From positions 1 through 23,728 of IMG/VR virus record IMGVR_UViG_3300049460_000115: 23,728 nucleotides of DNA; one strand, 5' to 3'. This document shows, piece by piece, positions 4,502-7,950 of this stretch. Made by a program: the position numbers and the translations under genes. Source of the DNA: a virus. The notes under the pieces are model-generated. The model had not been told where the DNA came from, made no database searches, and saw nothing but the letters and a program-made list of their open reading frames with translations. Positions within the stretch are counted from its first letter, which is position 1; each line of letters begins with the position of its first letter.

Positions 4502-5878
4502 TCAGGCCTTCGCTACTTGGAGTTCGGTGGCCGGGACAAAGCCCGGGTGACGCACACGGTTACGCGCGACAATTTCCGCGGCGCGCAAGGCATCGCCATA
4601 CAGCGCATGGGCCAACACCAGCGCTGACACGGTTTCGGCCGGGGCATAGGTGCGCAGGCCGACGCCGCTGCGGGCCACTTCCGTCAAGTGCCGATCCAGG
4701 GCCTGGCGAGCCTCACTCAGCGCGCCAAAGTGCTCTGGCTGACTGTCGCCCGCCACCGACCACATCGCCTCGCTGATCGCGTCACGCACGGCCAGCACGT
4801 CCTCGGCGACCGGCACCGCCGTCTCGACCGCGGTACCGGCCTGTACCGTCGCCCCTTGTTGCGCCAGTTGCACGTCCAGGGCTGCCGGTGCGCTGACGCC
4901 CGAGCGCACCGCGACCGGCACCTCGGCCATGTCCAGCAGCACATCCAGAAGCGCCGCGTCCTGTATCAGGGCAATCACCGCGGCTTGAATTACCGCCACC
5001 TCCGCGTCATCGGTGGCCGGTGCCGTGGCCGCTAACGCCGCCGCCACCACCGCCTTGGCACTGCTGCCCTGGAATGAGCTGCTGGCACCGGGGCCGCCCA
5101 AAGCGGCGCTGGAGTCGCTGGAGCTGCTAGCACCGGAGTCACTGGACGATCCGCTGGAGCCGCCGGCGCCGGAGTCACTGGACGATCCACTGGAACCGCC
5201 GGCACCGTAGCCGCCGAACGAGCGCGCCAGGCCGGTAATATCCGCCAGCAGACTGTCGGCAAACGCCCCTGGCCCATTCAGCAGCGACGACACCAGGCCG
5301 TTGAGGTCGGTCCCCAAGGACATAGCCGGCTGCAGGAACTTCAAGGCAAACCCCAACGCCCCCGACAGCGCCGAACGCACCGCACTGGCCCGTTGCCGCG
5401 CCAGGTCCACCGGCGCCATCGCCGCGTTGAATCGGCCCTTGATCGAACTCAGCAGGCTCGGCGCCTGGGCCGCCAGTTGCCGGCGGGTGTTCGGCGACTG
5501 CACCGGGAAGGCCAGCATGCCGTCGATAAACTCCAGGTTGAAGCGCACCACGCCCAGCTCATTGCGCGCATGCGACACCTCACAGTCGCCGGCGGTGACG
5601 GTCATGCGGCCAAACCACGGATGCACCAACTCGCCCGAGCCGAGCTTATCCAGCGCAGTCAACAGGCGGTCGCGCTGCGCCAAGCAATCATCCCCGGCGA
5701 CAAACCCGGTGAACTTATAGTGCCGAGTGCGTCGCCCGAGGTCTTCGACAAAGGGTTGATCGCGCTGGGGAAACTCATGCAACTGAGTCCGCCGACCGAC
5801 AGGCACGCTGTCGGTATCCACCAGAAACGGCACCCCCCGGAAGGAGGCGCCTTGTTTACGGTCGCGCCATTCACTCAT
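4502..5878 (-). CDS. Mu gp43 / gpN-like DNA circularisation N-terminal domain protein
   Basis: Residues 1-130 match the phage DNA circulation N-terminal family (Mu gpN/gp43), a tail/baseplate protein. Key stretches are WRDRKQGASFRGVPF, the R-T-Q-L-HEFPQRDQPFVEDLG segment, and LVHPWFGRMTV. Residues 220-275 are a low-complexity Gly/Ser/Asp linker made by a 36-bp tandem duplication. The remaining part is a long alanine-rich, helical C-terminal domain. The start codon shares one base with the tape-measure stop (TAATG), so translation is coupled. In Mu this gene also lies between tape measure and gp44. The name refers to an old proposal about DNA circularisation; a structural tail role is the safer reading. 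Confidence 0.88.
   Translation of the reverse strand: MSEWRDRKQGASFRGVPFLVDTDSVPVGRRTQLHEFPQRDQPFVEDLGRRTRHYKFTGFVAGDDCLAQRDRLLTALDKLGSGELVHPWFGRMTVTAGDCEVSHARNELGVVRFNLEFIDGMLAFPVQSPNTRRQLAAQAPSLLSSIKGRFNAAMAPVDLARQRASAVRSALSGALGFALKFLQPAMSLGTDLNGLVSSLLNGPGAFADSLLADITGLARSFGGYGAGGSSGSSSDSGAGGSSGSSSDSGASSSSDSSAALGGPGASSSFQGSSAKAVVAAALAATAPATDDAEVAVIQAAVIALIQDAALLDVLLDMAEVPVAVRSGVSAPAALDVQLAQQGATVQAGTAVETAVPVAEDVLAVRDAISEAMWSVAGDSQPEHFGALSEARQALDRHLTEVARSGVGLRTYAPAETVSALVLAHALYGDALRAAEIVARNRVRHPGFVPATELQVAKA
5133..5204 (-). repeat. 36-bp tandem duplication encoding a Gly/Ser/Asp linker
   Basis: Two near-identical 36-bp units (5133-5168 and 5169-5204) each encode the 12-residue unit GAGGSSGSSSDS. 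A degenerate third unit (GASSSSDSSAAL) follows in the protein. The copies differ at very few bases, unlike the fibre repeats, so the duplication looks recent and may vary in copy number. Confidence 0.8.
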
Positions 5879-6969
5879 TACGGCTTACTCCCTGATATCG
5901 AGCGGTAGCCCACTTGCGGCGTGATCGACAGCCCCGGTTGATTGCTCGTGCCCGGATCAACCCGGACCCCGGGCGGCGCCCCTTCAAAACGCACCACCAA
6001 CGCACCGTCGAGCTGTGTGCGGTTATTGGCCAACGACGACTGCAGCAAGGCGCCCGGCGCCGGCAGCCGCGGCTGGAGCAAGGCACCCGGCGCTGGCAGT
6101 CCCGACGGACGCAGCAGCTGGCCCGGCTCGAGGGGCGGCGGGGTCAGATTGCGCTCGTTCGGCGGACTGCTCTCCGTCCTCACCGCCTTGGCTTGCAGGA
6201 ACGCGTCCGGCGCCGCCAGTCCCGGTGGGCGCAACAACTGCGCCGGGGCGAATCCGCCTTGGCTCAGATTGCGTTCGTTCTGCTGAATGTTCGCCAGGCT
6301 TACCGCATTGGCCTGTAGAAACGCCCCGGTCCCGCCACCGGCGCCGGCATTACGCTGGCGTTGCTCGTCGGCATAACCGGCGACCTTGGCGGTCAGGCCG
6401 GCGCCGCCGTCTTCCATCCCAAACAGGCTCAGGATCGGTTGCAGGTACGGTTTGACACCTTCCCACAAGCCTTTGAAAAAGGCGGTGATCGGTGACCAAT
6501 GCTTGATGATCAGGCCCAGGGGCGACCAGTCAAACACCGTGCTCATGAACTCCATAAACGGTGTGGCCAGCGCCTTGATCAGCTCCCACAACGCGGTGAA
6601 GAACGGCCCGACCTTATCCCAATTGGCCACGATCAAGCCGGCCGCGGCGGCAATGGCCACGGCGATGAGGCCCACCGGAGTGGCGGCAAACGCCACGCCC
6701 AGGACGCGGGTGGCCACCGTGGCCGCGAACACCGCAATGCGCAGCGCGGTGAAGGCGCCGGCCGCCATGGCGATGCCTTTGACCAACTGCGGGTTATCCT
6801 GAATCAAATCCGCAATCCCGGAAATCATCGGGCGCAGGCCTTCGACCACCGCATTGATTCCCGGCAACAGGGCACTGCCGACGGACCGCGCCACACTGGC
6901 CACCGCGTTGCGCAACAGCTGCAGGTTGTTGGCGGTGGTCGCCGCGCGCGAGGCGTACTCGTTCTCCAT
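5878..6969 (-). CDS. Tape measure protein, C-terminal portion after an in-frame stop
   Basis: This 363-residue open stretch is in the same frame as the upstream tape-measure fragment, separated only by TAA at 6979-6981 and three sense codons. The first residues (MENEYASRAATTANNLQLLRN) directly continue the TP901-type core, so the ATG at 6969 is an internal methionine rather than a convincing natural start. I see no good Shine-Dalgarno sequence before it. Residues 65-117 contain hydrophobic segments, as expected for the membrane-inserting part of tape measures. Residues 217-296 form two 40-residue repeats. Joined with the upstream part, the gene would encode about 690 residues, close to Mu gp42. 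Whether this half is translated is unknown. Confidence 0.85.
   Translation of the reverse strand: MENEYASRAATTANNLQLLRNAVASVARSVGSALLPGINAVVEGLRPMISGIADLIQDNPQLVKGIAMAAGAFTALRIAVFAATVATRVLGVAFAATPVGLIAVAIAAAAGLIVANWDKVGPFFTALWELIKALATPFMEFMSTVFDWSPLGLIIKHWSPITAFFKGLWEGVKPYLQPILSLFGMEDGGAGLTAKVAGYADEQRQRNAGAGGGTGAFLQANAVSLANIQQNERNLSQGGFAPAQLLRPPGLAAPDAFLQAKAVRTESSPPNERNLTPPPLEPGQLLRPSGLPAPGALLQPRLPAPGALLQSSLANNRTQLDGALVVRFEGAPPGVRVDPGTSNQPGLSITPQVGYRSISGSKP
6082..6321 (-). repeat. Two 120-bp (40-residue) repeats in the tape-measure C-terminus
   Basis: Repeat 1 (6202-6321) and repeat 2 (6082-6201) share FLQAxAV, NERNL, QLLRPxGLxAPxA at the same spacing. A short extra unit, LLQPRLPAPGA, follows directly. 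The proline-rich composition suggests an extended, unstructured tail. The units have diverged considerably. Confidence 0.75.
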
Positions 6970-6978
6970 CGAGCCGGC

Positions 6979-7950
6979 TTATTTCTGCGCATCGGCGACT
7001 TTTTGCAGGTTGCCTTTGAGCAGGTCCAAGTTGGTCAACAGCGGGGCAATCGCGGTGATCGACTCGGTGCCGAACAGCTCCGAGAGCAATCCCGCCTGCT
7101 TGTCCTTGTCGACACGCTTGATGCGGTCGAGGATTCCGAGCACCGCCCCTTGCGCGTCGGCCTGCATGGCCTTGGCCACCTCCTTGGAATCCAGGCGCAA
7201 GGATTTGAAGGCTTGCGCCTGGCCTTTGGTGGCCGACGCCCCCTTGGTCATGGCTAGCATGAAATTCTTGATACCGGTGGCCGCCACGTCCTGCTCAACG
7301 CCGACGCCCGCCATGGTCGCGCCAAGGGCCGCGATCTGCCCCGAGGCCAGGCCGGCAATCTCGCCCAGCGGACCGATGCGAGTGACGATGTCGGAAATTT
7401 GCTTGGTGTTGGCCGGGCCGGTATTGCCCAGGTAGTTGATTTTATCGGCCAGGGTCTCCACGTCGCCCTGGGTCAATTTGAACGAGGTGCGCCACTTGGC
7501 CATCATGTCGCCCGACTCATCGGCGGTCTGGTCGAAGGCAATGCCCATTTTGACCGCCGCCTCGGCGAAGCCCAACAGCTCTTCACGGGCAATGCCCGAC
7601 TGGCCACCGGCCGCGACAATCTTGGCAATGTCATTGGCGGCCATGGGCAGGCGTTCGGACAATTTGCCAATGTCGTCGCCCATCTGCTTGAACTGCACCG
7701 GGGTGTCGAAGTTAACCACCTTCTTCACGTCCGCCATGGCCGTCTCGAACTGAATCGCCGCCGCCGCGCCGGCAATGAACGGGGCGGCCAACGCTCCACC
7801 GGTCACGACATCGCTAAAACCAATCTTGCCCAGCCCCGTACTCTCCAGCCCCTTGCGAAAGCCAGCGACGTTTTTGCGGATACCGGCCAAGGTCGGCGAC
7901 AGCTTATCGACACCGGTGATCAGCGCCTTAAGTTGAAACTTATCGGCCAT
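6979..7950 (-). CDS. Tape measure protein, N-terminal portion ending at a premature ochre codon
   Basis: The tape measure sets tail length and is threaded inside the tube. This 323-residue fragment has the TP901-type core: QFETAMADVKKVVNFDTP, LPMAANDIAKIVAAGGQSGI, AVKMGIAFDQTADESGDMM and SELFGTESITAIAPLL. It ends at TAA within NLQKVADAQK-stop-AGSMENEY, where homologues normally read straight through (commonly a tyrosine codon, one substitution from TAA). The start at 7950 follows the stop of the frameshifted chaperone by two bases, with AGGGG upstream. The gene is therefore split by a nonsense codon, and the full tape measure would run 5878-7950. Confidence 0.9.
   Translation of the reverse strand: MADKFQLKALITGVDKLSPTLAGIRKNVAGFRKGLESTGLGKIGFSDVVTGGALAAPFIAGAAAAIQFETAMADVKKVVNFDTPVQFKQMGDDIGKLSERLPMAANDIAKIVAAGGQSGIAREELLGFAEAAVKMGIAFDQTADESGDMMAKWRTSFKLTQGDVETLADKINYLGNTGPANTKQISDIVTRIGPLGEIAGLASGQIAALGATMAGVGVEQDVAATGIKNFMLAMTKGASATKGQAQAFKSLRLDSKEVAKAMQADAQGAVLGILDRIKRVDKDKQAGLLSELFGTESITAIAPLLTNLDLLKGNLQKVADAQK

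Follow-up and report, generated by a model that had tools for sequence, protein, structure and literature searches.

An in-frame ochre codon interrupts the conserved tape-measure gene in the record of a temperate, Pseudomonas-type phage

The closest described counterparts of the gene considered here are the tape measures of Mu/SfV-like contractile tails (PHROG 28, PF10145), with which it shares sequence, gene order, and length, but from which it differs by an in-frame stop at codon 324. A close example is the tape measure of a Pseudomonas serbica IT-P366 prophage (hereafter, L082), which shows 93% identity to the window protein over 690 residues that include the stop position and lies in the same gene neighbourhood; unlike the copy in the window (i.e., the whole 23,728-base stretch of DNA analysed here), the L082 gene is intact and single, and has an aromatic residue at codon 324. 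A more general class for comparison is that of defective prophages with nonsense-inactivated structural genes, in which, likewise, one point lesion sits in an essential late gene while the other genes are intact, although the lesion in the window is known from the record sequence only and we infer the prophage state. The record itself is a linear IMG/VR fragment that carries an integrase, and, of the sequenced genomes, those closely related to it are Pseudomonas prophages. It would represent a temperate phage of Pseudomonas type that combines an HK97-like head module with a contractile tail resembling those of Mu and SfV, the host and the integrated state being presumptive.

A previous, sequence-only reading had described two tape-measure halves lying in one frame and parted by TAA plus three sense codons, and this description is exact in both coordinates and frame. 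The TAA (6981-6979) is followed by GCC GGC TCG and then, in the same frame, by ATG 6969-6967, at which a 363-aa ORF (6969-5878) opens, and a second TAA (5880-5878) closes the tape-measure frame (Table 1). With the first TAA read through, the frame that starts at ATG 7950 and ends at 5878 comprises 690 codons, in agreement with the joined length of about 690 residues proposed earlier. Protein similarity also runs across the junction as had been claimed; that is, positions 231-532 of phrog_28 correspond to the first half (E 4e-75) and positions 537-704 to the second half (E 4e-47), in the same register and with a gap across the stop of four profile positions, and the first half scores 142.7 bits against PF10145 (cut-off, 33.2). 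As far as family membership is concerned, the profile matches are significant and collinear in both halves, and the gene sits, as in other members, between the frameshifted tail-assembly chaperone and the hub genes; what the record does not encode is one full-length product from an uninterrupted gene, the frame being broken at codon 324. The gene is, hence, a broken copy of the PHROG 28/PF10145 family rather than a working member.

Table 1. Features of the tape-measure locus and its neighbours in the window
Feature	Position	Strand	Description
In-frame TAA, codon 324 of 690	6981-6979	minus	Splits the tape-measure frame; sense in 160/160 aligned related loci
Tape measure, N-terminal part (323 aa)	7950-6979	minus	N-terminal helix and PhageMin_Tail helical domain (aa 92-294); PF10145 E 1.8e-41, phrog_28 E 4.3e-75
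Tape measure, remainder (366 codons + stop)	6978-5878	minus	Predicted long helical tape and C-terminal tail; phrog_28 E 4.1e-47, phrog_4200 E 4.9e-47
ATG, codon 328, GSM motif	6969-6967	minus	Possible yet unsupported restart codon; Met invariant in alignment
Tail assembly chaperone, intact	8382/8383-7953	minus	PF10109; -1 slip site GGGTTTTTT at ~8122-8114; extension ends just before the tape measure
Baseplate hub/DNA circularisation protein, intact	5878-4502	minus	phrog_184, PF07157; full coverage vs. L082 and L003
Contractile tail sheath, intact	10266-8782	minus	phrog_165 E 1.4e-189; 96% identical to L082, full length

Two protein scans provided 160 loci with a tape measure spanning codon 324, and the aligned codon encodes Tyr in 137 of them, Phe in 22, and Thr in one, with a stop in none; that is, every orthologous locus has a sense codon where the window has TAA. 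The earlier proposal of a nonsense change at an aromatic codon of a single tape-measure gene agrees well with these data (Tyr or Phe in 159/160 loci). When the C-terminal half served as the query, 69 loci spanning the codon were recovered, many of them from contigs already represented among the 160, and here, too, none had a stop (0/69). In close relatives with an intact copy, the tape measure occupies one ORF (639-691 aa) whose full length aligns across the stop with as much as 93% identity, and only a few relatives lack such a continuous frame. The exact stop junction was not found in other IMG/VR contigs, in scans from which records of the genome that contains the window may have been excluded, and IMG/VR pattern scans for TAA or TAG at the junction motif returned five matches, none of which was a tape measure, while a control pattern with TAY at the same motif recovered at least 75 tape measures. 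Since neither the aligned loci nor the TAA/TAG scans contain such a tape measure, this position is neither a conserved two-gene arrangement nor a recoding site. The finding that had been named as overturning the broken-gene interpretation, namely homologues that naturally carry two genes with the stop and start conserved at this site, was specifically sought among the relatives without success, and a naturally split tape measure was consequently rejected. Further, the parts of the literature searched yielded no published case of split or ochre tape measures. By these comparisons, the stop is private to the window record.

Lesions elsewhere in related tape measures are few. In L013, a relative with 95% identity, the tape measure carries a one-frame shift of its own at a G run near residue 288 (~5849-5864), which is another private lesion or base error, and that of L160 (from a Symbiopectobacterium endosymbiont) is also broken, being the only such case among the related tape measures besides L013; the L022 tape measure merely ends at the contig end. 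Isolated tape-measure lesions occur, therefore, in about one record in eighty.

The remainder of the window appears to be in good order. The tail genes follow the order sheath, tube, tail-assembly chaperone (with its -1 slip site), tape measure, DNA-circularisation/hub, hub, and baseplate wedge; upstream of them lie the HK97-type capsid, protease, portal, and terminase genes, and then the lysis genes and the integrase. The start of the hub/DNA-circularisation gene overlaps the tape-measure stop (TAATG), and the chaperone probably starts at ATG ~8383, after GGAGG, rather than at the longest-ORF start (8410). When proteins of close relatives were aligned to the window, every compared gene was covered without a stop or frame change, the tape measure excepted, which leaves the TAA as the sole lesion detected in some 30 genes; we read the other items flagged in this comparison as wrong-frame shadow ORFs or ORFs extended to a start further upstream. 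The suggestion that all other structural genes are intact thus stands for the genes tested against relatives, with the limit that the tail-fibre gene (1-825) is cut by the start of the contig. The integrase (22400-21099, minus strand) has the orientation of the late genes and is located just upstream of the regulator and lysis genes. A missing early region, suspected from this proximity of integrase and lysis genes, was rejected; the order is normal for this type of phage because L162, L164, L166, and L167 share it.

Based on these data, we favor, with a probability of roughly two in three, the view that the tape-measure gene of this temperate phage of Pseudomonas type has suffered a private and recent nonsense mutation, the base being taken as real. 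Translation would end after residue 323, the truncated protein would probably be unable to template a tail, and few or no normal tailed particles would be expected unless a helper phage provides a tape measure. Structure prediction, made on the intact homologue L082 rather than on a mended window protein, gave a helical domain that is confident only over about residues 65-340, past which long helices and, at the C-terminus, a short region of strands are predicted, all at low confidence. Judged by this model, the 323-residue product would retain, besides the N-terminal helix, the greater part of the helical PhageMin_Tail domain, and would lose the last part of the domain, the whole predicted tape, and the C-terminus. 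Tail-defective particles may be expected from the window phage because tape measures are essential in other phages, i.e., the lambda H and P1 sit genes are scored essential (PMC10695390). A tail built on the full 690 residues would be expected to measure about 104 nm, given 0.15 nm per residue (PMC9024508, PMC9703825).

The selection data bear on the age of the stop. The dN/dS ratio between the window and close relatives was 0.03-0.08 upstream of the stop and 0.11-0.23 downstream, compared to 0.01-0.10 and 0.05-0.22, respectively, for the same segments between intact relatives. The window tape measure shows, accordingly, slight relaxation at most, and purifying selection acted in the past on both sides of the stop. 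Given the low dN/dS on both sides, a real stop must be recent; however, the values fit a recent mutation and a base error alike.

Alternatively, it is possible that sequencing, consensus calling, or assembly placed a stop in an intact gene, which we consider rather unlikely but still the strongest competitor. That the lesion stands alone in 23.7 kb of otherwise clean sequence, that purifying selection acted on both of its sides, and that the same junction occurs in no other IMG/VR contig is all compatible with such an error, and the frame shift of L013 shows that isolated lesions do occur in these records. Beyond codon 324, nothing suggests a decaying phage, which fits an error equally well. 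On the other hand, only 2.7% of the substitutions in the tape-measure gene are computed to give a stop, substitution errors are rare in a deep short-read consensus, and prophage genes are often broken, all of which count, though indirectly, against an error. In our judgement, these considerations favor a mutation over a base error by about 2.5 to 1. It should also be mentioned that the stop is remarkable only for sitting in an otherwise uninterrupted, conserved gene, and that any one-substitution nonsense change would look alike; the finding is, in this sense, an ordinary one. If the base is real, a temperate phage has been silenced at tail assembly by one stop, with its other genes intact, and this may represent a recent step toward a defective or helper-dependent prophage. 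An erroneous base would call for flagging the record, lest its tape measure be annotated as two proteins. Either outcome leaves our knowledge of phage biology unchanged.

A functional split, with termination at the TAA and a restart at ATG 6969, nine bases on, so that two polypeptides still build the tail, appears very improbable. The TAA and the ATG are near each other and in frame, and dN/dS is low in both halves. In addition, the tape measures of L397 (2662-4740) and L398-L407 align to window residues 10-101, with the next aligned stretch beginning immediately at residue 339; that is, the PhageMin_Tail domain (window residues ~102-338) is absent from them, a gap that phrog_4200 has as well, and hence the domain next to the stop is dispensable in some relatives and the region past the stop resembles a self-sufficient tape. 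The N-terminal segment, however, stays fused to the tape in these same relatives, and not a single homologue is split at codon 324. The restart proposed earlier at ATG 6969 found no positive support, either, and was rejected: the anti-SD energy upstream of it is weak (-3.2 kcal/mol vs. -6.6 kcal/mol for the true start at 7950), i.e., there is no real Shine-Dalgarno sequence, and its Met is invariant for protein reasons rather than as an evolved start. A two-piece tape measure produced by termination-reinitiation, with the N-terminal domain and the tape as separate chains and tails still formed, is, if anything, marginally harder to credit. If true, it would mean that the helical N-terminal module, absent in some relatives, does not require attachment to the tape.

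Programmed readthrough or suppression of the TAA to give the full-length protein, also raised previously, is the least plausible of these possibilities: the frame past the stop is open and conserved and a host may supply a suppressor, but no relative has a stop at codon 324, a search of the window for tRNA genes, including suppressor tRNAs, found none, and general suppression would extend the many window genes that end in TAA. Reassignment of TAA was rejected, the window having one in-frame TAA only and TAA being common as a terminator; since TAA ends many intact genes (the capsid, protease, portal, both terminase, and the integrase genes), the genetic code is standard.

Finally, a few features of the tape measures are worth recording in their own right. 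The L397-L407 proteins have extra copies of a ~41-aa repeat (WTPLG...NW...LW), and the L397 protein is 692 aa long (from the longest-ORF start) vs. 690 for the window. The C-terminus of the window tape measure (6090-6330, minus strand) contains a diverged repeat of ~50 residues (FLQANAV...LLRPPGL and FLQAKAV...LLRPSGL), and the tape measures of the relatives L002, L006, and L083 are ~50 residues shorter.
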